A stretch of DNA of 64,000 bases from positions 89,678,288-89,742,287 of the forward strand of contig CM034531.1 of NCBI GenBank assembly GCA_020002185.1. The letters run 5' to 3'. Under the pieces are notes generated by a model. It searched no databases and had not been told where the DNA came from. It saw only the letters and a program-made list of their open reading frames with translations. Every line of letters begins with the position of its first letter. Position 1 is the stretch's first letter. Of this stretch, positions 17,476-63,279 are shown in pieces. The DNA is from Paraescarpia echinospica (Eukaryota; Annelida; Polychaeta; Sabellida; Siboglinidae). The translations under genes and the position numbers were made by a program.

Positions 17476-18252
17476 TTACAGACGCTCCCACGTCTTCTTG
17501 CCTTCCGACGGTGGCGTGGGTAGGGTGGACGGGTCCATTCGTCTCCGTGCGAGGGGTGTCCACTGCAGCGTTCGACGCGCTCTACCGAGCGATCGTGTGG
17601 CCTCCGCCGCCACTGCACTCTTCCTTTGGCCCTGTTGAATGTGGAGTCTCCTGGCCTCGTTACCCACCAACTCCATGGGCAGATTCATGTCATCGAGTTG
17701 GCGCGCAAACACCTGCCATCCCGTCGGATCACCGACGGTCTTGCGCTGGCGGCGCAACAGATCGTTCACGAGGTCCACCACGTTACTTCCGGGTACCGCT
17801 ACTCCTTTGCGCATGAGCTCGCCGCTTGCACTCCACGCGACGTCGCGTTTCAGGCGTTCCATCAGTCATCTGGCTTTGAGCTGGAGCGCCTTGGGAACGC
17901 AGTCGACGACTTCCTCTTCTATACCTCCCGCCCCCGCCTCAGGCGGGGTCGGCGCCGCATTCGCAGTCGTCGCCACGGCCGTTGCCACTGGGGAACCTGA
18001 CGAATCTTTGTTGCTCACCGTCGTTACGCGCACCGCTTCCCGCATGCGTCGATCGGCAAATGTGTTGTAGCGTAGCAGCACTTGATTATACATGACGACC
18101 TTATCGCCGTCGGTGAGATCGTGTCTGTAGAGTATGGCTTGCATCTCATTGTCGAGGGCCTGCACCTTGCGTCCCAGGGTATCCGTCGGCGGTGCGCGTA
18201 GACTGTCCAACAGTCGCGGATCTACCAAGGCCATCTTCCGGGCGTGTTCCAT
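17476..18252 (-). pseudogene. Conserved Polinton virion-block protein (PY/PW-like), one stop
   Basis: Two frames in the same phase make one gene: 18,252-17,866 (MEHARKMALVDPRLL, then QALDNEMQAIL and DGDKVVMYNQVLLRY) and 17,862-17,476 (MERLKRDVAWSASGEL, VPGSNVVDLVNDLLR, GWQVFARQL). Between them is a single TGA at 17,866-17,868. The protein is conserved in animal Polintons, but its role is unknown. The TGA is one CpG transition from CGA. A short N-terminal piece of the same family (KKMALVDPRILENI) recurs in Polinton 2 at 46.2 kb. Confidence 0.75.
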
Positions 18253-24784: not shown

Positions 24785-25066
24785 TCACTCTCGTCTCCTC
24801 ATGGTCCTGTCCCCGTCTTCCGGCTCAGTCACTACGGTTATACATCGACTACGCAGGCTCTCTTTCACCCGTGATATAGTGTCGATAGCCCATCCCGGTG
24901 TGTGCGATGCACACGCCATTTCGGTCACTGTCATACGGAGACCATTATAAATACGTGACCGATCAACCATGTACAGCTCCTTGTCGATACGTGAGGGAGC
25001 AATCATGTAGAGCTCCTCCTGCCTGTCTACATAGCGACGACACAGTAAGTTAGCTGTGTAGCGCAC
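24785..25066 (-). CDS. Unrecognised accessory protein with an internal repeat
   Basis: The frame opens at a GTG next to an acceptor-like CTACACAG, with the first ATG inside (MIAPSRID). A short duplication (ELYMIAPSRID / ELYMVDRSRIY) is followed by TEMACASHTPGWAIDTISRV. It overlaps the coiled-coil exon by 17 bp. No family recognised; it may be an exon rather than a separate gene. Confidence 0.4.
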   Translation of the reverse strand: MRYTANLLCRRYVDRQEELYMIAPSRIDKELYMVDRSRIYNGLRMTVTEMACASHTPGWAIDTISRVKESLRSRCITVVTEPEDGDRTMRRRE

Positions 25067-25583
25067 GCAGTTGCTCGTCTATCATTTTCTCAGTGCGCTT
25101 TTGAATTACATGCACCTTCGCTTCCATCTCCTGTAATTCACTACTCACTGTCTCCGTACGCGTTTGGTTGGCGTGCACCGTCGCTTCCGTCTGCTGTATT
25201 TCACTACAGAGCTCTGTGACGTCATCATCATCATCATCATCTATCATCTTCTCTACACGCGTTTGGATGGTGTTCACCTTCGTTTTCGTCTCCTGAAATT
25301 CACTATACATTTCCGCCGTATGCGTTCGTATGCTGTTCACCTTCGCTTTCGCCTCCTGCAAATCCCTACAGATGTCTGTAACCTCATCATACTGATCATC
25401 GCTCGACCACGTACCGTCCCCACACAACAGAACACTTGCCTCGTCGTCGTTGGTTATATCATCAGAGTAAGTCAGACGACGTTTTACACTTCGGGACCCT
25501 TCCCGCGATGGCGTCGCATCCTGTGTCGCTTTCAACCACCCGGACACGTCTTCGTATACAACAAACGACGACGGTGGGGACAA
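25050..25583 (-). CDS. Coiled-coil protein, 3' exon with three heptad-like repeats
   Basis: The open frame begins exactly after a GTTGTTGTAG acceptor (25,584-25,585) with TTG, not ATG, and is in phase 0. An N-terminal acidic part is followed by three imperfect repeats of about 33 residues (LQEAKAKVNSIRTHTAEM, FQETKTKVNTIQTRVEKM, LQEMEAKVHVIQKRTEKM), separated by an Asp run; the pattern predicts a coiled coil. The phase-0 exon at 26,153-26,215 is the natural partner, which makes the OB-fold frame upstream part of an intron. Function unknown. Confidence 0.55.
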   Translation of the reverse strand: MSPPSSFVVYEDVSGWLKATQDATPSREGSRSVKRRLTYSDDITNDDEASVLLCGDGTWSSDDQYDEVTDICRDLQEAKAKVNSIRTHTAEMYSEFQETKTKVNTIQTRVEKMIDDDDDDDVTELCSEIQQTEATVHANQTRTETVSSELQEMEAKVHVIQKRTEKMIDEQLRALHS

Positions 25584-26083
25584 CTACAACAACAACAACA
25601 ACACGACAAAGGAAAATTACGACTACACTTCCGGCAACCATACAGTAGCGGCACTAGCGCCACACGGCAACACCAGACACTACCTTCACTATTCGCCAGG
25701 TGGCTGCACTGGACCGTCAGGACATACAGATTGATAATTTCCAGGACCGTCACGGTGTAGTTGACGTACCCTGATTTTGTTGTTTTCCTGATTGTCACCC
25801 TACACTGTTTTCCGCGTAGGATACTCAATGCCTGGTAACGTTCGTCCTCGCTTTTTAATGACATATAGTCGGTTGCCGACAGTCCACCTACGGCCCGCTG
25901 GACTACACGATCGAACCCTGTCACCCACAATTCCGTGCCCTTGCGGTCGGCTAATAAGATACCCGTAGCGTATTTGTATACCGGGTCCCCCTTCTGTCGC
26001 CCATGGACCGGACATGCACTGTGGTGTCTTTTCATTTCGACCAATACTTTGCGGTTACAGCGCCGACACGCTGAATAACACAT
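25532..26083 (-). CDS. RPA70-C-like OB-fold / zinc-ribbon protein (putative ssDNA-binding)
   Basis: From ATG 26,083 the protein opens with a zinc ribbon (CRRCNRKV, then CPVHG: C-x2-C and C-x2-H) followed by strands like those of the C-terminal OB domain of replication protein A large subunit: YKYATGILLADRKGTELWVTGFDRVVQRAVGGLSA in two parts, then CRVTIRKTTKSGYVNYTV. After about residue 115 (VTVLEI) the frame runs through non-coding sequence, so the true end is unclear. An ssDNA-binding factor would suit PolB-type replication. The ORF lies wholly inside the intron 25,584-26,152. Confidence 0.6.
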   Translation of the reverse strand: MCYSACRRCNRKVLVEMKRHHSACPVHGRQKGDPVYKYATGILLADRKGTELWVTGFDRVVQRAVGGLSATDYMSLKSEDERYQALSILRGKQCRVTIRKTTKSGYVNYTVTVLEIINLYVLTVQCSHLANSEGSVWCCRVALVPLLYGCRKCSRNFPLSCCCCCCSCPHRRRLLYTKTCPGG

Positions 26084-26152
26084 ATATTAAGTTGACAGAG
26101 CCCTTGTTACGAGTGTGAGTGGGCGCTCGAATGCATACAATCCGTCACTTAC

Positions 26153-26215
26153 TTTCTCGAGTGCTGCCAGGTCGAGTTGCTCGGGGCTTGCGTTAAGATG
26201 ACTAGGCGCCGCCAT
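26153..26215 (-). CDS. First exon of a spliced Polinton 1 accessory gene
   Basis: ATG 26,215 starts 21 codons (MAAPSHLNASPEQLDLAALEK) that end at a consensus donor AAA|GTAAGT in phase 0. Phase-compatible acceptors lie at 25,584 (coiled-coil exon) and 24,449 (acidic exon). The start codon context contains ATGGCGGCG, also YY1-like. A TATA-like TATATAAGAG is about 90 bp upstream on the minus strand. Confidence 0.5.
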
Positions 26216-39844: not shown

Positions 39845-41545
39845 CTTTTTGTGTTCAGAGCATGTGATGATGGCTGATGACGCTGGCTGTACGTATACGG
39901 TTACACATCTAGTTATTGTGCACAAAAGATTATGTGATTGTACTTCTAAATATTGTCTCGGACATCTACTGGGATTTAATTTAGCCAAACAAAAACGGGT
40001 GCCAGGCAGGCAGCCTATTCGCAAAAACTAGACTAGGGACTGAAATAGGTTACTTTATAACATGAAATATGTACCTATTCAACATTTTATTTGTTAAATA
40101 ATTATTGTTTCCATCTGGATGTCCCTGATCGCAAATATAAACACTATTTTGTGTGCCTGCAGACACGATGAACCAGGGATGGTTAAGGTATTTCTCAGTT
40201 TAACATTAACCAACAGTTTTGAAGCCTATTTGTTTATATTTATGAATTAATGACATAATATATGTTCAGAATGCAAACATGTTATTTATGCCTTATATAA
40301 ATTAAAATATAAACTTGTCATAATTTATGCTTCTTGATTTACTCCTCGGTCCCCAATATTTCCATGTCTGGAAAAAACTGACACATATTCCGTGAGACGA
40401 TCTTCGATACAAATGCAGTGATGTTTAATTACTTAATATGGGTTCCGTAGTAGCACATAAAAGCAGCGTTGCGCCGAAATACAAGTACGAATAACGCGGT
40501 GTCAATAAATAGGCCCACTCAGATCAGGCTACCAGCGCTATTGGACCACGTAATAAACAGCCAAAATTGACAGGAAGTTAACTTGTAGTATGTCTACTAG
40601 GAGGTGCTCGGTGCGCGCGGTGCGTCTACAATTCGATTCACTTAGGGGTCATCTCAGAACGTCGATGTCCGATATCAGACGAAATTACTTTCATCTTGCC
40701 TCAGCCCCCCCCCACCCACCTCAGACGAATTTTTAAAATATTAATATGATGATACCAGTATAATTAAGAGTGTTGGTCGATGTATGACGCCAGATGAAAC
40801 TGCCTCAGAGCCCCGTCCCCCCAACAAAAAATAATTTCGCTTGATATCGGACATCGATGTTCCGAGATGATCCTTTAGCAAAAATGAAACTACACTCTAG
40901 GAACAACGATTCGCTACCTCGTTTGTGCATTTTATATGTAGGTTTAATAAAATAATTAGAGACAATACTATTTTAGTTTACGATTTATATATTTTATTAT
41001 AAACTAGACACTAAAGTTTAGTAGGGTCTAATTGATTGTAGTTATTTATATATATATATATATTGTTATATTTATGTAAGGCATAATGAACATGATATGT
41101 ACACCTATGAAAATATATTATGTCATTAATGAATAAATATTCAAGAAATGTATACTTCAAAGCCCACGGTTAATGTTCAACTGAAAAATGCGTTCAACAT
41201 CTCTGTTTTTCATGTGTGGAGGTACATAAACTATCGTTTATATTTTCGATCAAGGATATTCAGATGAAACCAAAAATGAAATGGGGAGTGGTAGAAGAGG
41301 TACACACCTCATGCTATGAAGTAATTCATTTTTGGTCTCCGGTTTTGGTGAGAGAACCTAGATTACATTCTGTAAAGTGATTGCCCGCATGCCCCCATTT
41401 ATCTTAGTCTAAACTCAATCGCATTAGGCTTCTATCATAATATTTAGAAGTACAATCACATAATCTTTTGTGCACAATAACTAGATGTGTAACCGTATAC
41501 GCACACTCAAAGTCATCAACCATGGACACATGCGTTGAACATAAA
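39845..41545. mobile_element. Foldback-type inverted-repeat element, about 1.7 kb
   Basis: The left arm (39,845-40,745) and the reverse complement of the right arm (40,790-41,545) share, in order, TATACGGTTACACATCTAG, TTAATGACATAATATAT and CGATGTCCGATATCA. The arms meet near 40,760 with almost no spacer, so the whole region can fold into one hairpin. Arms differ by indels. There is no coding sequence and no clear target duplication. It may be a Foldback-like transposon or an inverted duplication. Confidence 0.6.
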
Positions 41546-41639
41546 AGGCATCCAGTGTTGTCTAAGGTCACGAATTTGTTCAAGCCCTGACAACAAAGCC
41601 AAGCTCAAAACACTGGCGTCGGAACATGGTGGATATTTG

Positions 41640-41840
41640 GTGGGTTGAGGCTCTCCAAAACCTCGATTTGCACTCCCCCTCTTGAGGCTCGCCAAAACAG
41701 CCACATTAAGGCTCTCCAACATCACAATTTGCACACCCATTGAGGTTAGCCAAAATAATTCCATCTTCAGGCTCTTCAAAAACCTCGATTTGCACCCCCT
41801 CCTCCCACATATCTACATTGAGGCTCTCCACAAACATGAA
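41640..41840. repeat. Minisatellite, about 60-bp units
   Basis: GAGGCTCTCCAAAACCTCGATTTGCAC-type units (quoted in part: GAGGCTCTCCAAAAC) recur about four times with gaps. Confidence 0.65.
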
Positions 41841-41869
41841 TTTGAACTCCTCATATATTCATGTCTGTC

Positions 41870-42130
41870 AGATGCTCGATGTCTGATTTTTTTTAAATTT
41901 CTCTCGCTGATCCTGCACAGCTCTCTCCACCAGATCGTTCGCTCTCGTTTTCCACCCTTCTCCCAATCCTTCAAAATCTCTTTTTCCATAGTCTTCCCAT
42001 CGCAGTCTGGTTCTTCCTCGCCTCCTTTCCCTTCCCTTCCAGTTTCTGTGCATCTGCTCTCTTTGCTATCCGTTCTTCTCCCATTTTCTCTACAAGCCCT
42101 GCCCATCTTAGTTGTCTCATGCTTATGCTT
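41870..42130 (-). pseudogene. LINE ORF2 C-terminal fragment (RTE/L1-like)
   Basis: Two overlapping frames carry RRRGRTRLRWEDY and LGEGWKTRAND. The pattern RGRPRxRWxD followed by a basic, Trp-containing helix is the usual C-terminus of RTE- and related LINE ORF2 proteins. The frame is broken at least once, and no RT core is present. Confidence 0.5.
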
Positions 42131-42786
42131 GTTCAGAAACAATTGTGTCGACTAGTCATATCAAAGACACAATTAACCACAGGCGCAACTACGACCAGAC
42201 GATGTAAATAAGTAGCATCATTCTAGTCCACTGCAGCCATTTTGGGAGGTGGTGCTGTTCTAATCATAGTTCCTGACCCAGGGATTATCGTCTCCACAGA
42301 CGCACCGACTTTGACACATCATGTAATCCACTTGCCAGAAAAGAGATACAATTAACCGAAAGTGCTACTTAACCCCCACTTTAGTGCATCGGCACTTCCA
42401 GGTGTAAATTACAATTTTGATATACTCGTTTGTGCTGAATCATATAGAAAACGACATTGCTCTCTAGTCTAACAAATTCAGTTTTGTTACAGCCTGTAAC
42501 ATAGCTGTTAAGGTGTATCAGAATGGGACGAGGAAAGGCGAATGTGTTTTTGGAGGACAATCGTTCAGATGGGACCACCTTGATGATATGTTGCAAGACA
42601 TGTTGTTGTTGTCTATGGAAGTTCCCATAGAAACCAGGAGTATACACCTCAACAATAAAATAATAAAAATATTGAATGAGTATTGGTTTACATTATTTAT
42701 TCATTATAAATACGAAGAAATTACATTATCACATAAGTATGTACGGTATCAGCGGTATGCATGGTATATATATATATATATATATA
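42131..42786. other. Non-coding DNA before Polinton 2
   Basis: A plus-strand frame near 42,513-42,640 (GKGECVFGGQSFRWDHLDDM in another phase) looks somewhat coding but has no start, splice support or known domain. The (TA)n run at 42,766-42,792 served as the insertion target. Confidence 0.35.
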
Positions 42787-42792
42787 TATATA
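42787..42792. repeat. Target-site duplication of Polinton 2, left
   Basis: TATATA, repeated at 59,216-59,221. Because it lies in a (TA)n run the match is less telling than for Polinton 1. Confidence 0.75.
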
Positions 42793-42870
42793 AGTAGTAA
42801 TAGAGGTTAAGTAGCGTGTACGCTGGCGCGGCGCGCGGCGCGGTGGAAGTGGAAAGTGCCCGGATGTAGG

Positions 42871-42911
42871 TCAAGGTCAAACACACGGATGTAGGTCAAG
42901 GTCAAAGGTCA
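42871..42911 (+). promoter_or_regulatory. Nuclear-receptor-type sites in the left TIR
   Basis: TCAAGGTCA (extended half-site of NR5A/ERR type) occurs at 42,871-42,879 and 42,896-42,904. The second runs into a perfect DR1, AGGTCA-A-AGGTCA, at 42,899-42,911. Binding is inferred from the motif only. Confidence 0.5.
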
Positions 42912-42944
42912 CATGGCACCTCCTAGCGAAATTTTTCGGAACTA

Positions 42945-43470
42945 AAATAGCGCCCTGGCGGATAGTTGGTTAACTAAAATATTTCCCGACAAAATATAAT
43001 TTCCCGCCAAAACTAGAACAGCGCCCCCTGATGGATAGTTGGTGAACTAAAATATCCCCCTCCAAAACTATAACAGCGCCACCTAGCGGATAAATCATGA
43101 ACTAAAACAGCGCCATATGGTGGAATTTTTGGAACTAAAATAGTTCCATACAAAACTACAACAGCGCCCCCTGGCGGATAGCTGGTGAACTAAAATATTT
43201 CCCTCCGAAACTATAACAGCGCCACCTAGCGGATAACTAATGAACTAGAACAGCACCACCTGGTGGACTTTTTTGAAACTAAAATATGTTTACCCGCAGC
43301 GCCACCTAGCGGAATTTTTCGGAAAGAACTATTCAAATTGTAAACGAAATGTTCGAGTTCTGCCCAATTTCATGCGTCTTGGTTTGACCATTAGCGCCCC
43401 CTGGCGGAATTTTTTGAACTAAATTTCCCCTGTCGGATAGGTCGTGATCTACAAGTGGTGCCACCTGGAG
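42945..43470. repeat. Tandem CTCF-like motif array, left
   Basis: Units of about 50-60 bp: GCGCC(C/A)CCT(G/A)GCGG, then ATAGTTGGTGAACTAAAAT and a pyrimidine-rich spacer. The core, read on the other strand, is CCGCCAGGGGGCGC, one base from the standard CTCF core CCACCAGGGGGCGC. Confidence 0.75.
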
Positions 43471-43828
43471 CATAAGTTGTGAAGTAAATGTTCGAGTACT
43501 GCAAATATTCGTGTCTCTTGCACGCTTGCGTGCAATGGAACCCCCTGACGGATATATCACGAACTACAAACATCATCCCCTAGTGGCCAAGTGAGCGAAC
43601 CACATATGGGTACTGCAAATATTCGTGTCTGTTGTTTTTGTCGAGTGCTTACTCCTGGTGGATATATCATCATCAACTGAAAGCACCCCTGTTAGATAAG
43701 TTGTGAACTAAATAACTACTCTGCAGTCCGCGCTTGTGTACATTCTACTCAGCTGTCCGTGCTTTTGAATTTTCTATAATCCGTGATCTTTCGGCACGCC
43801 CACATGACTTTTCGGCACATTTACTAAC

Positions 43829-43866
43829 TATATAAGCGCGGTGTTTTGCCAATCGGACCGTCATTC
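43829..43866 (+). promoter_or_regulatory. TATA box and initiator for the OB-fold gene
   Basis: TATATAAG at 43,829-43,836 and TCATTC at 43,861-43,866, about 32 bp apart, followed by ATG 43,901. Same arrangement in Polinton 3 (62,433 and 62,465). Confidence 0.65.
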
Positions 43867-43900
43867 GTATCACGACGACAGCACTGCTAACATCATCATC

Positions 43901-44467
43901 ATGTTGAAGACACCCTACTACCGACCTCGCAATGCGGCAGACTCTAGCGACGAGGACGAGCCGACGAGCCGACCCATCATGCCGGTGATCAACCGTCCTT
44001 CCGTGCCGTCGGAACCAGACGTCGTGGACGTCGTGGACATCTCAGCTCTAGAAACATCGGTAAGCGCCGACGCAGTTATCCAGATCAGAGGTCTCCTCAT
44101 CGACAGAGTACGCCAGCACACTCCCTTGTACATCGGGTGCAGGTACTGCAAGAAGCGTATGATTACCGACGATAGGGGACATTTGCAATGCGAACGACAC
44201 GGTTACGTTGCCTCTGACGTGCATTTCGTGGTGCGCATGTGCTTTGTCGAGACAGCGACGGGTCGATCTATATGGCTGACTTTATTCGATCAGTGTATGG
44301 CTCCTCTCCTTGACGTGAATGCCGAGACGTTTGCTGTTATGGACGAAACGATGCAGACTTACAAACTGAACTCGTTGGCGGGAACTCGTGTGTCTCTCAC
44401 CATAAAGAAAACTCGACGATATACTTACACAAACTTCAACGTCACTCGCGTGGAGGTGATACACTAG
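43901..44467 (+). CDS. RPA70-C-like OB-fold protein, unspliced form (putative ssDNA-binding)
   Basis: From ATG 43,901 (same start as in Polinton 3) the protein has a Pro-rich acidic head (RNAADSSDEDEPTSRP), then a zinc ribbon CRYCKKRM...CERHG (C-x2-C, C-x2-H), and OB-fold strands DVHFVVRMCFVETATGRSIW, LFDQCMAPLL and RVSLTIKKTRRYTYTNFNV. Order and lengths fit the C-terminal DNA-binding domain of RPA large subunit, as does the Polinton 1 protein. A donor TCG|GTAAGC inside the frame (44,060) offers an alternative spliced product. Confidence 0.6.
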   Translation: MLKTPYYRPRNAADSSDEDEPTSRPIMPVINRPSVPSEPDVVDVVDISALETSVSADAVIQIRGLLIDRVRQHTPLYIGCRYCKKRMITDDRGHLQCERHGYVASDVHFVVRMCFVETATGRSIWLTLFDQCMAPLLDVNAETFAVMDETMQTYKLNSLAGTRVSLTIKKTRRYTYTNFNVTRVEVIH

Positions 44468-44486
44468 GCTCCGTATCCTGTTTCAG
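44060..44486 (+). other. Optional intron containing the OB-fold coding region
   Basis: The donor TCG|GTAAGC at 44,060 and the acceptor CCTGTTTCAG ending at 44,486 are both good. Exon 1 (43,901-44,059, 53 codons) and exon 2 (from 44,487) are both in phase 0. Retention gives the OB-fold protein; removal gives a different C-terminus. In Polinton 3 a genomic deletion removes nearly the same stretch. Confidence 0.6.
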
Positions 44487-44999
44487 CCTCTCTCTGCTGT
44501 CATCCCTGCCGATGTGACAACTTCCGCCGACACGACCGATGTGACAACTTCCGCTCCTGACGATGTGAGAATTTCTACTCACGCAACCAATGTGACAACT
44601 GCCGCTCCTGTCGCCACTGGTCCGAACTTTAAGCTTGAGATTCCGGCGATGGAAATGAAGAAGACGATTGCACGTGACATAGCATGTGCCATCGTTGAAC
44701 TCTCGAGACGACTGTGTCTCGCTTGCGAGATAGACGATCCTAGTCAATTTCATCACGATTGTATGTTACCTGATGACATTCTAATTTATTTGCACTTTGA
44801 CGAGGCTGTGGAGGCCATTAATTCGACTGCAATGATGAAAGACTGGTTGTGTGTTTTGTTAGACGCAGGTTTGAAGCTATCCGACCTGACGTCCGATCAC
44901 TTGTGTGCTATCGGGAGTTGGTTGCAAGAACTGTTTTCAGAGGAGTGGCGAAACAAATTAAAGCAAATTGTTCTGGCAGTAATGGAGGATGATCTATAA
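44487..44999 (+). CDS. Alternative 3' exon: Thr-rich linker and helical domain
   Basis: The frame is open from the acceptor in phase 0 with no ATG at its start. It has a Thr/Ala/Asp-rich linker (DVTTSADTTDVTTSAPDD), then a conserved helical part: EIPAMEMKKTIARDIACAIVEL in two halves, FHHDCMLPDDI, HFDEAVEAINSTAMMKDWL, and VLAVMEDDL at the end. Polinton 3 encodes the same block (62,7xx-63,075), so it is under some constraint. No known family recognised. A poly(A) signal AATAAA follows at about 45,093. Confidence 0.6.
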   Translation, partial: PLSAVIPADVTTSADTTDVTTSAPDDVRISTHATNVTTAAPVATGPNFKLEIPAMEMKKTIARDIACAIVELSRRLCLACEIDDPSQFHHDCMLPDDILIYLHFDEAVEAINSTAMMKDWLCVLLDAGLKLSDLTSDHLCAIGSWLQELFSEEWRNKLKQIVLAVMEDDL

Positions 45000-45174
45000 A
45001 TCTGTCTTGTGGTTTTATGAGACCTTCGGTGACATTAATTCAACTGCAGATAATGGAGCGCGACCTGTAAATACGTTTGTGTTGTTCACGAATAAACTGT
45101 GCAAACCTTATCTTGCGTCTTTTTTCGTGTCTTACACTTCACAAGTAAAGGTACTCGTCTAAGTCCAGATTAAC

Positions 45175-45850
45175 AAATCACTCACTCACTCACTCACTCA
45201 CTCACTCACTCACTCACTCACTCACTCACTCACTCACTCACTCACTCACTCACTCACTAACTCACTCACTCACTCACTCACTCACTCATCCTTCGTGTCT
45301 GTTCACTCACTCACTCACTCACTCACTCACTCACTCACTCATCCTTCGTGTCTGTTCACTCACTCACTCACTCACTCACTCACTCACTCACTCACTCACT
45401 CACTCACTCATCCTTCGTGTCTGTTCAATCACTCACTCACTCACTCACTCACTCACTCACCCTTCGTGTCTGTTCACTCACTCACTCACTCACTCACCCT
45501 GCGTATCTGTTCACTCACTCACTCACTCACTCACTCACTCACTCACTCACTCACTCACTCACTCACTCACTCACTCACTCACTCACTCACTCACTCACTC
45601 ACTCACTCACTCACTCACTCACTCACTCACTCACTCACTCACTCACTCACTCACTCACCTACTCACTCACTCACTCACTCACTCACTCACTCACTCACTC
45701 ACTCACTCACTCACTCACTCACTCACTCACTCACTCATCCTTCGTGTCTGTTCACTCACTCACCCTGCGTATTTGTTCACTCACTCACTCACTCACTCAC
45801 TCACTCATTCTCTCGCTCATTCAATCACACAAGCCCTCACTCACTCACGC
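45175..45850. repeat. (CTCA)n tetranucleotide array, about 680 bp
   Basis: Almost pure CTCA, interrupted several times by TCCTTCGTGTCTGTT. The long frames reading THSLTHSL are artefacts. Confidence 0.97.
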
Positions 45851-45982
45851 CCTCCCTTCGTCGCTTTTCTAACATTTTATCATTTCAACATGTTACCGTG
45901 GTAACATTTTCGTATTTTAGTGCGTTCAATTCATCTCGCCATTCATTTCATTGCTTGCACTTGAACCACAAACACCTACATC

Positions 45983-46318
45983 ATGAGCTTATGGAGTCGT
46001 CTACCAGCTGCCAACAAGTCCACACCATCACCGTTCCAATGCCCAAATTGCAAGAGACATTTCTCACGTCGGGAGAACTTGAAACGGCACATTGCCTCCA
46101 TTCACGGTGGACGATTGACAAACACCACGTCACTGGATTCACTTGTCTCGGGGCCCACTATGACACATGTACCTACGGTTCCTTCAACAAACTCGACATT
46201 CCCGTCTCCATCTCAGGTGACCATGGAGTACACAAAGAAGATGGCCCTGGTCGATCCCCGTATTTTGGAAAACATACAACCGCAACGTCCTTCGACTGCT
46301 AGCCCTATCACAAGTTAA
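45983..46318 (+). CDS. C2H2 finger joined to the start of a Polinton virion-block gene
   Basis: The 111-residue frame has an intact C2H2 finger (FQCPNCKRHFSRRENLKRHI, then H in SIHGG) at residues 19-43, a Ser/Thr/Pro linker, and then MEYTKKMALVDPRILENIQP, which matches the N-terminus of the Polinton 1 protein at 18,252 (MEHARKMALVDPRLLDSL). It ends soon after. This may be a chimaera left by deletion of the virion genes. The finger resembles that at the N-terminus of Polinton 1 PolB. Confidence 0.6.
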   Translation: MSLWSRLPAANKSTPSPFQCPNCKRHFSRRENLKRHIASIHGGRLTNTTSLDSLVSGPTMTHVPTVPSTNSTFPSPSQVTMEYTKKMALVDPRILENIQPQRPSTASPITS

Positions 46319-47192
46319 CTAAAACAGCGCCACTAAATATTCAAATAAAAATCGTGTTGATGCTATGGATGAGTGTGTATGTTTTCGTTTTCATAGTCAT
46401 GAAGTGAATTTTGACTTTATTAAGAGTGCCATGTAATATTTGCATGTAATGTTGGCATGCACGTTATAGTATTACCTTAATTAAGCAATAAAAAAGTCGA
46501 CACCATATATGCGTTCATGAAATGTTTTATTCAGACACCCAAGAGAAAGTATCAATCTTATAAAATCTTGTAAACCTTAACTATATACAAATTGATTTCA
46601 TATGATACACAAATCGTATTCAGACACCCAAGAGAAAGTATCCCTGTAAATGATATCACACATATTCTTGTTGTCAGACACCCAAGAGAAAGTGTCAATC
46701 TTATAAAATCTTGTAACCTTAACAACTATATACAAATCGACTCCATATGATATACACAGACACTGTTAGACAGTATGTTACACTCTGCGTTTATTGACAC
46801 GATTTTTTTGCAGCGATTAAAGTATACAATATACTTCGTATATATGTCATCAGTGTTCACTTAAAAAGAAAAAAGAACATCATGATGATGATGATGCAAC
46901 AATGACGTGTGTGTGTATCGATACACTCTTTATCAATTGACAAGATAGGAGTCGATAAACACAATAGTTCATCACGGCTACATTAAGACCGGATATTACA
47001 CGGCTATCTCACGAGTGTACCGAACAGTCAATGTGAAATGTGAAATGCACACTCTTTAATAATCGACAAGTAACAAGTAGGAGTCAGTGGTCGATAAACA
47101 TCATACCTGATCACGGTTACACCAAGACTATATGTTACACAAATACCGAATGATACACGGGTAGCTCACGAGAAGATTTACTGGCGTGTCTA
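46319..47192. repeat. Non-coding region with direct repeats
   Basis: CAGACACCCAAGAGAAAGT recurs at about 46,534, 46,620 and 46,677. A second diverged pair (46,910-47,000 and 47,050-47,160) shares GTCGATAAACA and GATCACGGTTACA-like text. This is where the virion genes would be expected. Nothing coding is visible. Confidence 0.6.
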
Positions 47193-50100
47193 TTATACCA
47201 GACACTGAGAGGTAGAGATTCCGTCGGCTTGTACCGGTCGTTTGGAATAAAAATCGGTTAGTTCAGAACGTTCTTGAATATATGTAAAAACTGAAGCATT
47301 CTTCACCCGAAACACTCGATGTTTCCCAACACCACTCTCTTTGGTTTTCAGTACTTTCAAAAACGTGTCTTTGTCAATTTCGTTGTGTCTCTTATTTAGA
47401 CCTTTCGTGCTGAATTTATCCGTATCACCAAAACAATAATATGTTTTTCTACACAAGCCGATGAAACCTCTACCTTCGTACTCTATTTTGAACAGACCGG
47501 GTGTCCTTTTGTCGTGACGCGCACGCCCAATGCAACAAGATTCAGAAGGGACCCATTCTTTCCCTTCCATCCAACAAGTAACATAATCGGACGCGTGCGC
47601 GTCACAACAAACAGCAGGAAACCACCGGTACAAGTTTATAAAATATTCGTGTCGTTTATCGGTGGTAACACAATCGTCTAAACAAGAAAAAGCTAGACTT
47701 AAATATGCGGAATCCGTATCCATCTCGCAATATTGGAAGAGAGGTCGCTCTATATAATAATCTATGAAATCGTAATAAAATTCCAGCATTCTCAATTTTG
47801 CATACTGGTAAACCATGAAACCGATTTGAAGAGGGAGATCGTACTTAATGGATTTCTTGTTCATTGTCAGTTGGTACACGGATTCCGTAATTGGGTCTAG
47901 CTGGCGAAAACGATGACTGTTAATTCCTTGGCTCGCCGTTTTAGTATTACAACAGATACTATCTCTGTGGCGATCCTTATTAGTGATACATTTTCCATAG
48001 CCACTGTTCCCAAGAAGTTTCATCGTATCACCAATAATGGCCTTGTCCGGGTGCACGTCATCTTCGCGGCGTGCATTCGAGACGGCATTGGCGAAATGTT
48101 TGAAACACGGACTGGGTTCGTATTCTAAAACTTGATAAACGTGAGATACGACCAGTCCGTGTTTCAAATACCATTTTAACAAAGGTGTACCTAAAAGAAT
48201 TTGTTTACCAAAATACGAAGCGACCAGTGTACGCCGAGGAGTAGATAATATATTGTGCTCTTCGGCGTAAGCTCGCATATAGGAGCCGATGTCGTTACGA
48301 GTAATGTCAATGTTTTTGAAAATGGGTTGCATTTCACCAAAATAATCTTTAAGATGATCCGGAACAAAAATGTCGCACTCTACCATGCCAAATAGGGATA
48401 CATTCAACTACATTTTGCAAAACTTTATCTTGGGTCATTTCCCACTTCAGGTTACGGTGAGGAAATTTTGAATTTAGAAAATTTCTTACTTCGGAATTTT
48501 TCCGAATTTCTTTCTATTGACATTCCCACATTTCGATGACCTCGGTATATTTACGCAAATACGTAGTGTTCTTTTTAGTTTCCGATAAGATATCGGCCAT
48601 AGACTTCCCGTTGATAGAGTTGGTGTGCTCCACGTTACATGTACAACCGTGAAAATAACAACCGTGAAATTGATAAACGGTGCGGGTCTGGGCACACCAT
48701 CCGTCAACGGGAAGATTACGATCCCAATGCGTTTCTCTTCTCCGTTAAATTGATGCCTTATCGTTGTATTCTTTTCGTGAGCTACCCACTCTAACCATTC
48801 AAGAGCCATTTTTTTGTAAACACGTGATGTTTTAGGTCTGAAATTATTTTCTTGGCTACGACGCGTATAACATCCGGTGGGCATATCTTGTGAAAGAGCA
48901 CAAAGGTATAATCCATTCGCATCGTAGTCGACAATGGAACGACAGGGGTGAGCTGAGTCGCCCCTTTCCGATTCACGAAGTCGTGTAACGTCGACTTCGT
49001 GATGGCGGTGATATATTATAGACGGGCCCCCTACGATGGCTTTTTTTAACATATCGTGTAAATCCGAATCTTTTTGATTAAACAGACTGAAATAAATATC
49101 ACGTGGTAATGTGTCAAACATAAATTTCATGGTTAGACCGGGAACGCTAATACCGTCTTTAAACATATCAATGTGGCGCAATTTGTAAAAAGAGAACTGT
49201 TTTTGTATAGCTTCAAGGAAAGGAACGACATCTCTATTGTTGTACCAAATAAGAAAATCACGAAAAGTTTTCATATCGTGATCGCGCCAAATTTGTTCGC
49301 AGTACGCGTAATTTTCGTCAGAAATGTCTTCGTTTTTCAAATCGCTGTGAAAAGCTTCCTTTGGAGGAAGGGAATCACAGTCGAGTCTACTTAACGAAGT
49401 CACCCACTCGTAGGGAAAGTAGCCTTTAGTTTGTACACATCCGTAAGCTTTCATAAATTTTTCGTCACTAAAACCGGGGGCCAAATAATTTATGATGTCC
49501 AAAAATTTCAAAGTCGCTGTTTTTAAACATATCAGATTAGTATGACGCATTAGTGTGAAAATGATATTTTTAGATTTCTTATTAGATTCGTTCTCGTCAC
49601 CTACGTCGGTTGTTAGGAAGTGTGGTGTGATATATTTTTTTATGACGTTCAAATCGTATTTTCCGGAATTAAAGCCAATGACGGGTAGTTCTTCAAGAAA
49701 TCCGTGAAGCTTACCAATTAATTTTTTAATTTCATCTTCTGTGATAATAGGTAAAGGTGACCCGTCATCTAGAATTTCGTCTAAGTCGGGTTCGAGCATT
49801 CTAGCCTCTGGTGATTGAATATCTTTTAGTTGTTGGTTTAATTCATCAAAAACAAACTGATAACGTGTTTTAAGAATTTCGGAAGCGGTGTCGCTAATTT
49901 CGTAAAGATAATTTAGAAAACGGTCGACTAGTTGGCTCGGCTAACCCTCGCTAATAAAACAGCGTGGTTCCTTGTACCCGGGAACATTGGATGATACACT
50001 AACGCTAAGTATTTCGTGTCGAGCCAACCACTCAACCTTTGGAGTATTTACCGGTAAGTTGGCCGTGTCAAAATAAGATTCAAAATCAAAGGTGGCCCGA

Positions 50101-51353
50101 AACGGATAATACCGGTATTTTTCTTTGACGTCAATACCCAACTCATCAAGTTTCTGAAAAATGGTTTCCTGAACATGAAATATACCACCAGGGAATATTC
50201 TCTTCACCTCGACTTCGCAACCTTGTTGGTGTCTTTTTAAGGAACATTCTGTATGCCAAAGTTTGTCACATTTGATACATTTGAAAGACCGTGTGTACGT
50301 TTTAATATCGTGGATATAAGAAAAATGTGTTTCGAAAAGATTTAAATTTAAAGTATCGGGGAATTTACAAGTTGAACGCCTCAGTAAATGACACGCTACC
50401 AAGTTCTTGTCGTCGTCGTCGTGATGATCGAGTAATTCATAAACATATATATTGATATGAAAAAGCTTTTCAATGTCATAAAGGTCACTTAGCTTAAAAC
50501 CAGGGAAATGTGTCATAGATGGGGCATCGTTTAGGGACTCACAATACATGTTATATAAGATTTGAACATGAGGCTCGATATTACGAATATCACCTCCCCG
50601 ACTTAGTGCGAGAGCACGGAAAAAACAAAGATTATCTTTATAGGATGGTCTGCCGTGTCGGGACCAGTCACAGGACAACGAATGTAAACCTTTATTTGCG
50701 AGGATATAGTCGGGAAGCACTACACTACCAGTACCTATAGGGTGATCAGGTATGATGTTTATGTAAAAGGTAACATTTGTTACCATTTCACAGATCCACT
50801 GAGAATCGGGCCTCTGTCTAATTGCCCAACTTAAAATATCTTTTTCTTCAAACGATTTTAAAAACAACTGAAATTCATTGGCAGTACTAATTAAAGGGGG
50901 CCTGTCCAGAAACCTACCGGAAACATTTTTTGAAGAATGAAAATAACGATGTTCTTTCGTTTTCTGGTTATATAAAATAAATCCAAAACTTAAATTAATT
51001 TTGAAGGCGGTAGTTTGTTCATCAAAAATGCTCCACAATGTTGGATGTAATGAGGTTATGTCAGTATCCGATAATCGAATGTTGTAGGTTCTCTGGACGG
51101 GCCCCCTACGATAATGTGTACGAATTGTCGACCACTGACTCCTATAAAAATTTAACAAATTATCAGGTACAACATCTACAACCTCCGGTGGTACAAGCGG
51201 ATCTTGTACCAGGAGTAACGGAGAGGGCGGGGGTGAGTGACAGGGTGACGGCCTTTTTGCTGCTGGTGACGATGTCGGTGAAGATGTCGGTGACGATCTG
51301 GTCGGCGCTGACGAACTGGTCGGTGATGACAACCGTCGGCGTTTTCGCGATTT
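47193..51353 (-). pseudogene. polB: Protein-primed PolB of Polinton 2, main exon, broken
   Basis: Entering in phase 0 after a TTGTTGTAG acceptor at 51,354-51,355, the exon has a basic Ser-rich start, then the terminal-protein-like region, Exo I (RATFDFESYFD), Exo II (IGFNSGKYDLN), Exo III (WYNNRDVVPFL), palm A (VDYDANGLYLCAL), palm B (KLLGNSGYGK) and palm C (MDTDSAYL). Breaks: an in-frame TAG at 49,941-49,943, a frameshift near 48,715 and stops between about 48,520 and 48,410. All palm motifs are present, unlike in Polinton 1. The sequence is clearly diverged from Polinton 1. Confidence 0.93.
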
Positions 51354-51698
51354 CTACAACAACATATGTTTTTTACAATACAATACAATAGGAGTTTATT
51401 GTCCAATAGTAATTCATAGAATAATTTTCCTTTTGTTGAAGATAACATATTCCTTGTTAGATTAAGTTAATTAAGTTAATACAACCAACAAAGTTGTTCA
51501 TAACTTGGATAGTGAAACATGTAGTAAAGTATTCAACTATTTAAACACACAAGATTGAAAAACACCAATAAAGGTACGTATCACTAGACGGGAGAATATA
51601 AATCTTTTATGGTACGGTAGTGAATTGCTTCAGTTGATATGTACATTAAATACAGATTTAGTCAGTGATAATACCCGACATCTTCAAAGATTACTCAC

Positions 51699-51782
51699 CG
51701 TAGTGCCTTCGGTCACAGGCGCAGGCGGCGCAGAGGTAGTTGGAACATCAGCAGCAACGGCAACGCGCTCCTTTTCTTGGCG
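51699..51782 (-). CDS. PolB upstream exon C (28 codons)
   Basis: The acceptor TATTTCAG and donor ACG|GTGAGT bound 84 bp, phase 0 at both ends, reading RQEKERVAVAADVPTTSAPP and a short tail. Polinton 3 has the homologous exon at 62,123 (RQEKECIAANVATS). It links the zinc-finger exon to PolB. Confidence 0.6.
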
Positions 51783-51956
51783 CTGAAATAAACACACAAG
51801 TTGAATTTTAATGATGATATATAAAGTATAATAAGACGGGATTTGTAGCAACACCTGAAATAAACACAAGTTGACTTTTAATCATGGTATACAAAATATG
51901 AACATATGACATCTGTAGCAGCATCTGAAAACATTTATAGAATACAATCAAGTTAC

Positions 51957-52211
51957 CATTATTTTTTCAACGGCTGCTTCCCGCCGCTGCTGCTTGTCGA
52001 CCTTCCTCTGACATCGCCCCTACTTAACGTGGCGTTGCCAATCCCTTCTCCTGGTGAAGGTACTGTTGCACATACAGCACGCGAAGTGTGGCAGCACATT
52101 CACTCGGTTGGTCGGGGGTGTCCCGGCAGCAGTTGAGGCCGGGGCCGGGGCTGTCCCGGTGGTTGCTGGGACCGGTTGTCTCTTTGCTGGTAAAGGCCCG
52201 TTGATGAATTT
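51957..52211 (-). pseudogene. PolB upstream exon B: C2H2-type finger, one stop
   Basis: Acceptor TTGTTGTAG, donor ATG|GTAACT, 85 codons in phase 0. A Pro/Ala-rich part is followed by FACCMCNSTFTRRRDWQRHV, an in-frame TAG where Polinton 3 has Gln, then CQRKVDKQQRREAAV. The finger is homologous to Polinton 3 YTCCMCGSTFKYKGNWPAHV. Confidence 0.65.
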
Positions 52212-52369
52212 CTACAACAATAATTAAATATTACAGACGCAATGATATGAAAAAATTTGATCAAAAGTCACGTGACTTGAAGCCTATAGGAAGACAATAA
52301 CTATACGGAGGCAATATCTCGATAGGAATAGGATGAGAGCATTTGTGTTGACAGGAAGTATGTATGAGC

Positions 52370-52692
52370 CGCCATTTTGTTGGAAGTAAACAATATACAG
52401 GGACGCCATTTTAGCGGAAGTAAACAATATACAGGGACGCCATTTTAGCGGAAGTAAACAAAATACATGTAAACAATATACAGGGACGCTATTTTGACGG
52501 AAGTAAACAAAATACATGTAAACAATATACAAGGACGCCATTTTGACGGAAGTAAACAAAATACATGTAAACAATATATAGGGACGCCATTTTGACGGAA
52601 GTAAACAAAATACATGTAAACAATATACAGGGACGCCATTTTGACGGAAGTAAACAAAATACATGTAAACAATATATAGGGACGCCATTTTA
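52370..52692. repeat. Minisatellite, part 1 (left of the CR1)
   Basis: Units of about 47 bp with GACGCCATTTTGACGGAAG and TAAACAAAATACATGTAAAC, plus shorter variants. GCCATTTT is the core of a YY1 site. The array resumes at 57,466 on the other side of the CR1. Confidence 0.9.
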
Positions 52693-61518: not shown

Positions 61519-61553
61519 TATAAAAGCCCTGCGTCTGTTTTTTGTGGTCATTA
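61519..61553 (+). promoter_or_regulatory. TATA box and initiator for the zinc-finger gene
   Basis: TATAAAAG at 61,519-61,526 and TCATTA at 61,548-61,553, about 29 bp apart, before ATG 61,572. Confidence 0.6.
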
Positions 61554-61571
61554 TATCTTAAATTTTGGAAG

Positions 61572-62003
61572 ATGAACAACATGAATAGTGATAACGTCCG
61601 ACAAGGGATTTTGCTACCGAAAGCGCAGCCTTCTCCGGCTACGGGACCACTCGATCTCTCGACCCCAACAATCAACCCGAACCAACAGCCAACGACCAGT
61701 TCAACGACCAGTCCGACGACCAGTTTGACGACCAGTTCGACGATCAAACCAATTTCGTCTCTGTCATCAGCTCCGGCAATCAACCCAACCATCAACCTGA
61801 CATCGTCACCTCCGACGAAGCGTCAGAAGCTGTTGCCTCGTTATACATGCTGTATGTGTGGCAGTACCTTCAAGTATAAAGGGAATTGGCCCGCTCATGT
61901 GAAGCAGGGCTGCTGCCAAAGGAAGCAAGATAAACAGCGGCGACGTAAAGAACAACTTGAAGAACAACTTGAAGAGATAACAGTCAGCTTCAATTTTTCA
62001 TAG
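61572..62003 (+). CDS. Zinc-finger protein, exon 1 (or unspliced form)
   Basis: From ATG 61,572: MNNMNSDNVRQGILLPKAQP, a Ser/Thr/Pro-rich repetitive part (TTSSTTSPTTSLTTSST), a basic KRQKLLPR, the finger YTCCMCGSTFKYKGNWPAHV with CCQRK, and a Gln/Glu-rich coiled helix. It stops at 62,003 unless spliced near 61,98x (ACA|GTCAGC, weak) to the exon at 62,123. It is homologous to PolB exons B and C of Polinton 2. Confidence 0.65.
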   Translation: MNNMNSDNVRQGILLPKAQPSPATGPLDLSTPTINPNQQPTTSSTTSPTTSLTTSSTIKPISSLSSAPAINPTINLTSSPPTKRQKLLPRYTCCMCGSTFKYKGNWPAHVKQGCCQRKQDKQRRRKEQLEEQLEEITVSFNFS

Positions 62004-62122
62004 TGTTCAAATGGTATTCATGCTATTTTGTTAGAACATTTTCAAAAGAACATAATATTATATTTTTTCTTATACATACCAGTTGACCATTCATTATTAA
62101 GCTTATTCCTTCACTGTTTCAG

Positions 62123-62269
62123 CGTCAAGAAAAGGAGTGTATTGCTGCAAACGTCGCTACTTCTCCCTCTTCCCCCCTGTTGCGGAAAATATCGGCCCTC
62201 CAAGCGACTGTCTCTACTGCTGAACACACCCAAGCAGTGCAAGGAGAAAGGACGACAGTCTTTACATAG
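62123..62269 (+). CDS. Zinc-finger gene, exon 2
   Basis: After the acceptor CACTGTTTCAG, phase 0, 48 codons starting RQEKECIAANVATS and ending at TAG 62,267. In Polinton 2 the same exon goes on through a donor into PolB; here that donor (GTGAGT) reads GTCTTT and the frame simply ends. Confidence 0.55.
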   Translation, partial: RQEKECIAANVATSPSSPLLRKISALQATVSTAEHTQAVQGERTTVFT

Positions 62270-62432
62270 TAGAGTTGAACTTACTTCAAATGATTGTCTG
62301 TTTACAAACTGGTTTGAACTGGTATTCGTTGTGCAAGTCTGATCTACTATACAGTCCGTGGATGTGTATTTTCTATTCTGCAGTCTGTGCTCGTTCGACA
62401 CGACTACGTGACTTTTCGGCACATTCACTAAC

Positions 62433-62470
62433 TATATAAGCGCGGTGTTTTGCCAATAGGACCGTCATTC
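62433..62470 (+). promoter_or_regulatory. TATA box and initiator for the OB-locus gene
   Basis: TATATAAG at 62,433-62,440 and TCATTC at 62,465-62,470. Nearly identical to 43,829-43,866. Confidence 0.65.
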
Positions 62471-62501
62471 GTATTACGACGACATCACGACTAACATCAG
62501 G

Positions 62502-63075
62502 ATGTTGAACATACCCTATTACCGACCTTCCGTTGCGGCAGACTCGAGCGATGAGGACGAGCCAACGAACCGACCCAGTATGCCAGTGACCAACCGCCCT
62601 TCCGTTCCGACGGAACCAGAGGGCGAGGACATCTGGTACACTAGGCTCTGCGATGTACCAACTTCTAACCAGCCTGCCAACGTCGCAATTTCCGCTCCTG
62701 ACTTTGTTGGTCCGAACTTTACCATTGATTTTCCTGCGACCGAAATGAAGAAGACGCTTGCACGTCACATAGCATGTACCATCTTTGAACTCTCAAGACG
62801 TCAGTGCCGTGGTTGCGAGTCAATTTCATCACAATTGTATGTTATCTGATGACATTCAAATCTGCATGTACTTTGATGAGGCTGTCGAGGTCATTAATTC
62901 AACTGCAGTGGTGAAAGACTGTTTGAGTGTTTTGTTAGACTCTGGTGTGAAGCTATCCGATGTGACAGTCGAAAAGTTGTGTAATAACAATACTTGGTTG
63001 CAAGAAGCCGTTTCGAAACAGTGGCGAAACACTATGAAACATATGGTTCTGGCAGTAATGGAGGGTGACCTGTAA
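62502..63075 (+). pseudogene. OB-locus gene lacking the OB fold, frameshifted
   Basis: The frame 62,502-62,849 starts MLNIPYYRPSVAADSSDEDE as in Polinton 2, lacks the zinc ribbon and OB fold, and resumes with the helical block (PATEMKKTLARHIACTIFEL). Near 62,815-62,830 a short deletion or frameshift moves the rest (FHHNCMLSDDIQI, EAVEVINSTA, VLAVMEGDL) to another frame ending at 63,075. The missing part equals about 44,040-44,453 of Polinton 2, close to the proposed intron. AATAAA follows near 63,186. Confidence 0.65.
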
Positions 63076-63279
63076 AGAACTTTCTTTTGTCTTGTACACG
63101 ATTAAACTTTGCAAGACTCTGTATCAATGTTTCTGGTTCTTTTAGTTATGGAGCGTGACATGTAAATACGTTTGTGTTGTTCACGAATAAACTGTGCAAA
63201 CCTCATATTGTGTCTTTTTCATAGTGTAATGCAAAGCGTATGTTGGGAACCTTACTAATAGTCTTACACTATATAGATA

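Follow-up and report, generated by a model that had tools for sequence, protein, structure and literature searches.

A gene of the element Polinton 2, located in the window (the whole 64,000-nucleotide stretch of DNA analysed here), probably makes two proteins from one unit comprising a TATA box, one ATG, one intron and one poly(A) signal. Splicing out the intron would let a short head continue, in phase 0, into a Ser/Thr-rich linker followed by a small helical domain, and keeping it would extend the same head through a zinc-ribbon/OB domain encoded by the intron itself. Both alternative ends are under constraint, and the same layout is present in two distant Polinton lineages. We propose that partial splicing would yield both RNAs, and with them both proteins, simultaneously, in the manner of small DNA viruses, and would not act as an on/off switch. 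Because no later intron is visible, the unspliced RNA should escape exon-junction decay, by an established rule that we extend to this gene. The head-OB protein would most likely coat single-stranded DNA during replication of the element, and the head may do the same job in both proteins.

Layout of the Polinton 2 gene

The landmarks of the original prediction were all found in the sequence, namely the ATG at 43,901, the donor TCG/GTAAGC at 44,060, the acceptor TTTCAG ending at 44,486 and a phase-0 frame from 44,487 to 44,999, and its lengths were also correct, with 188 aa for the unspliced protein, 53 codons for the head and 170 aa for exon 2 (Table 1). In the unspliced frame, 135 intron-coded codons follow the head. 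The gene therefore has the form of a retained-intron gene, with a common head, a frame open through the intron and a frame open after the predicted splicing, and the segment 43,829-45,096 reads as a single transcription unit. Because shuffled DNA is rarely this open, the tail and intron frames are not accidents: of 2000 dinucleotide-preserving shuffles each, 1 of the tail DNA was open from the first base for at least 150 codons and 2 of the intron DNA were open for at least 135 codons.

Table 1. Features of the Polinton 2 gene and of its Polinton 1 counterpart, with positions in the window
Feature	Position	Strand	Support or remark
TATATAA, promoter-like	43829..43835	+	at most 110 bases 5' of the ATG in 66 of the 71 copies (of 74) whose ATG position aligns
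Predicted exon 1, common head, 53 codons, acidic	43901..44059	+	a multiple of three bases long in 68 of 71 copies
Putative donor GTAAGC, phase 0	44060..44065	+	GTAAG in 72 of 72 alignable of 74 distinct copies
Zinc-ribbon/OB frame in the intron, continuing the head frame; stop 44,465-44,467	44060..44467	+	Pfam Rep_fac-A_C; dN/dS
Predicted optional intron, 427 bases	44060..44486	+	427 bases in 65 of 71 copies with both ends aligned
Putative acceptor CTGTTTCAG	44478..44486	+	unchanged in 73 of 73 alignable of 74 copies
Predicted exon 2 (tail); stop 44,997-44,999	44487..44999	+	relatives in other genomes
First in-frame ATG of exon 2, residue 55	44649..44651	+	start required if there is no splicing
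AATAAA, common poly(A)-type signal	45091..45096	+	at most 200 bases from the tail stop in 56 of 72 copies
Polinton 1 predicted exon 1, 21-codon head, ATG 26,215, ending AAA/GTAAGT	26153..26215	-	
Polinton 1 intron-like stretch with OB frame; acceptor TTGTAG	25584..26152	-	
Polinton 1 tail frame, phase 0 from the acceptor, 177 aa, coiled-coil-like	25050..25583	-	

The claim of a zinc ribbon and OB fold in the intron-coded part holds by sequence. This part matched Rep_fac-A_C in Pfam (30.2 bits, cutoff 28.5; E 4.5e-7), and a profile match linked the OB part to Replication factor A protein 1, chain 6i52_C (E 2.9e-5); relatives of Polinton 1 scored 40.0 bits (L096) and 42.4 bits (L095) with Rep_fac-A_C. 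The gene resembles the C-terminal domain of RPA70 in its zinc-ribbon/OB sequence profile above the Pfam cutoff, and differs from RPA70 in that about 135 intron-coded residues stand behind a short head and no other RPA domain matched. By its profile, the OB part is the only one assigned to a known family, Rep_fac-A_C (RPA70 DBD-C-like). The structure model of the unspliced protein was poor and carries little weight (pLDDT 49.0); its low-confidence span was exactly the head, residues 1-53, which looks disordered in the model. A second model was also poor and carries as little weight (pLDDT 50.5).

The predicted tail consists of a Ser/Thr-rich repeat part, reaching to 44,633, and a helical core, and no Pfam family scored above cutoff for it. 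A conserved C-x2-C ... PSQ ... H-D-C pattern at 44,700-44,770, matched by no named family, is possibly zinc-binding. An LxCxE motif, considered for the tail, was ruled out, the window reading LACEI. A long CACT-type tandem repeat (45,178-45,840) separates the tail gene from a zinc-finger frame. A 110-aa C2H2 zinc-finger frame lies at 45,983-46,314 (zf-C2H2, 29.0 bits against 25.2), and its end, KKMALVDPRILE, resembles by eye RKMALVDPRLLD in the Polinton 1 frame 17,866-18,252.

The identification of the element as a Polinton rests on its resemblance to Polinton 1. Frames of the two are 54% alike over 198 residues and contain a DTDSAYL motif, which we take to be of PolB type; no Pfam match to PolB was found in the frames of the elements at the cutoffs used. 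As to a packaging ATPase and an integrase, Polinton 1 matched Adeno_IVa2 (24.2 bits, cutoff 21), and its rve score was below cutoff (19.1 bits, cutoff 32.6). No terminal inverted repeats of at least 30 bases were found in 41,500-52,500, and since the element ends are not established, the Polinton 2 copy may be truncated.

Conservation among copies and constraint on both ends

Copies of the gene were collected from the source genome of the window (1.08 Gb), which gave at least 197 and at least 150 matches, with 150 candidates scored each, out of 2758 and 3645. We took 80 loci (L001-L080, L001 being the window copy) and dropped 6 identical ones, leaving 74 distinct copies; because these loci are the best or listed protein matches, counts of open frames among them are biased upward. 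The outcome named beforehand as speaking against the original prediction, namely related elements without donor, acceptor or conserved downstream frame, did not come true among the copies compared. The invariance of GTAAG and CTGTTTCAG is by itself modest evidence, because the copies stem from a young burst in which 63% of intron sites are invariant. The head measured 159, 153, 150 or 144 bases in 68 of 71 copies. Both forms could be scored in 70 copies, with 52 intact for both, 8 for the tail only, 8 for the OB only and 2 for neither, counts that lean to intact since the copies were chosen as good matches.

At subfamily level, the exon-2 repeat changed size in threes (+24, +27, +51, +54 and -27), although no in-frame ATG precedes residue 55, and a 4-base insertion at the stop left the tail length unchanged in five copies. 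In L011, L056 and L074 (+2) and in L050 (-2), the tail is thrown out of frame by CT slippage just 3' of the acceptor, and L065 (+170) and L071 (-8) are further exceptions to the multiple-of-three rule in exon 2. L036 has lost 377 of the 427 intron bases and retains both splice sites and both exon frames. Elsewhere in the genome, a tail copy with 97% identical DNA (L086, G000:C14:47771171-47771560) lies inside an open frame of 1811 codons.

These size changes bear on a reading without splicing, in which head plus OB and the tail are two neighbouring genes, the tail being started at the internal ATG 44,649 (MEMKKT...) by re-initiation or from its own promoter, and donor and acceptor are chance sequences. 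The 54 codons before this ATG stay open and, in the burst copies, change mostly in multiples of three, and the acceptor preceding them is unchanged in 73 of 73 copies; a phase-0 acceptor is placed there in two Polinton lineages whose tails showed no relation, and L036 lost the OB yet kept both splice sites. We therefore consider two unspliced genes unlikely, even though the first in-frame ATG of exon 2, at residue 55, adjoins the best conserved part of the tail (EMKKT), in-frame ATGs occur 8-10 codons 3' of the Polinton 1 acceptor in its relatives L096 and L097, and tails of the Ridgeia type (described below) start with an ATG before LFQ in three of five models and further upstream in two.

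A comparison of dN/dS in the two parts, proposed with the original prediction, showed that OB and tail core are both constrained. In the correct frame, with the window as reference, all of the 16 loci had a tail-core dN/dS of 0.25-0.79; the two wrong frames, with stop codons left out, gave 0.81-2.33 (5 loci). OB-bearing families had OB values of 0.33-0.52 (8 loci; L081 covered 98 of 135 codons), the 7 loci with the second OB half replaced or hardly aligning had 0.54-1.45, and head values were scattered from 0.36 to 1.42 (15 loci, few changes). Among tail core changes, those common to at least five copies stood at 9 N:14 S versus 90:26 for private ones (p 0.0004); the corresponding OB figures, 12:13 versus 69:39, did not differ significantly (p 0.11). 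Taken from the aligned sequences, the layout looks kept by selection.

If the intron were always spliced, the OB frame would be a leftover and the head-tail protein the sole product. The splice sites do look complete, some families have the second OB half replaced, and the OB of L036 is mostly deleted; the constraint on the OB in 8 loci (0.33-0.52), and its retention together with the head in database proteins (about 50% identity) and in Polinton 1 relatives, make constant splicing very improbable. Relatives in other genomes retain head plus OB and, separately, the tail: 16 database proteins match head plus OB (41% to 71% identity over the part covered), three of them Ridgeia piscesae gene models, and the tail has five matches (48-51%).

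Of 13 aligned Ridgeia-type proteins, 12 include the second half of the head or more, and P0010 starts at the head end. The donor's Val-Ser codons are absent in 13 of 13, which have KVVD, KAVD, NAVD or KPTD instead, and it appears that in the Ridgeia-type family either the donor moved or the family does without it. All five database tails have L-[FY]-Q where the acceptor stretch of the window reads LFQ, in an alignment made by eye. In the source genome, the 150 listed matches to the Ridgeia-type family are all at most 59% identical to P0001. Among the viral contigs scanned, no relative was confirmed.

The Polinton 1 counterpart and a possibly exchangeable middle

As had been predicted, Polinton 1 has the same layout, with donor GTAAGT in 4 of 4 and acceptor TTGTAG in 3 of 4 copies; these results rest on the window copy and its relatives L095, L096 and L097, out of 153 matches, and the tail had at least 151 matches in the genome (150 candidates scored). 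The acceptor stretch, TTGTTGTAG, directly precedes the tail start at 25,583, and the heads are in phase 0 in all four (63, 60, 57 and 54 bases). In the window copy, a stop lies between head and OB and the frame from the head ATG covers 42 aa, and the head-to-OB frame is open in the relatives L095 (168 aa), L096 (163 aa) and L097 (219 aa). The tail of L097 is open from the acceptor to the end of the locus (112 codons) and that of L096 for only 62 codons; L095 is without the acceptor, and a deletion seems to have joined its OB directly to the tail. All 5 aligned proteins, three of which come from databases, have LE-x-VSDG across the Polinton 1 donor. The OB frame of L097 (L097:1-1201), 219 aa in all, continues into a 15-residue repeat (EIFQSEVAAPD...).

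The statement of the original prediction that the two Polintons barely match in sequence needs correcting for the OB parts, which are homologous (BLASTP against L096, E 1e-9, 24%). Homology between the tails was not found by hhalign (probability 0.7%, L095 tail only). The OB parts are only 24% identical although polymerase-frame parts are 54% identical.

We further inspected 14 loci hand-picked as divergent, in which GTAAGC stood at the aligned donor in 8 and TTTCAG at the aligned acceptor in 4, with TTTAAG in L089 and the rest unalignable or of other sequence. Of 8 divergent loci examined, 6 contain a zinc-finger segment ending GTG/GTGAGT, which is in phase 0 in 4 and shifted in 2. In those 6, ATATTCTTGCAG precedes the tail; in 5 of them the tail frame runs on from this point for 189-191 codons, and ACG/GTAAGC is still in the head in 4 (L087, L091, L092 and L093), in phase 0 in three. 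The comparison suggests that head and tail are fixed and the middle, an OB or a zinc-finger segment, is exchangeable.

The segment ending GTG/GTGAGT with ATATTCTTGCAG before the tail in 6 of 8 loci, and a zinc-finger frame (61,572-62,000) lying upstream in a third element, would also accord with a tail spliced in vivo mainly from another exon such as the zinc-finger exon, the head-tail form being a minor by-product. In the window's own family, read from the window sequence, no zinc-finger segment lies between head and tail, and the head keeps its phase (multiples of three in 68 of 71 copies), so that we give this explanation little chance. The reading with one optional intron allows a broader proposal, which we offer with some doubt, that worm Polintons possess an ancient and widely conserved splicing module with a fixed disordered head, an optional intron coding for the ssDNA-binding protein of the element itself and a replaceable tail. 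In such a module the middle would be exchangeable, most families read having the OB and others a zinc-finger exon, and splicing efficiency would therefore determine how much replication protein the element makes relative to accessory protein.

Known splicing systems and a decayed third element

Polintons are considered ancestral to many eukaryotic DNA viruses. In SV40 (large T and small t) and adenovirus E1A, an early unit gives proteins with a common head whose C-terminal parts are chosen by splicing. The Polinton 2 gene would share with these systems the early unit, the common head and the different C-terminal parts; SV40 and E1A use alternative donors, whereas here one donor is predicted to be used or not. 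Among mobile DNA elements, the third intron (IVS3) of the Drosophila P element is spliced or kept, giving two proteins with a common N-terminal part (PMC7776569), and the likeness lies in this pair of proteins from one optional intron, predicted in our case. The kept intron of the P element gives a truncated repressor and IVS3 is under tissue control, whereas the Polinton intron codes for a complete, constrained RPA-C-like domain; P element and Polinton are unrelated. Intact vertebrate Mavericks/Polintons, likewise PolB-bearing virus-like elements integrated in animal genomes, are reported to have no introns (PMC8097293, in agreement with earlier work cited there), in contrast to the intron we infer here.

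Among the papers listed in our literature search, which lay mostly outside subscription journals, none dealt with alternative splicing or intron retention in Polintons. An intron coding a complete replication-type domain and kept by selection in two distant lineages would mean that an early-type gene of Polintons is controlled by splicing. The layout is also a pattern that annotators can search for, as the spliced form would be split or overlooked in ordinary gene calling.

The third element (61,542-63,080) is decayed and belongs to the same family, with the zinc-finger-type frame (ATG 61,572) 5' of a head at 62,502. Its donor and most of the OB are gone and its tail frame is broken. The zinc-finger-type frame contains PLDLS, known as a CtBP-binding motif of adenovirus E1A.
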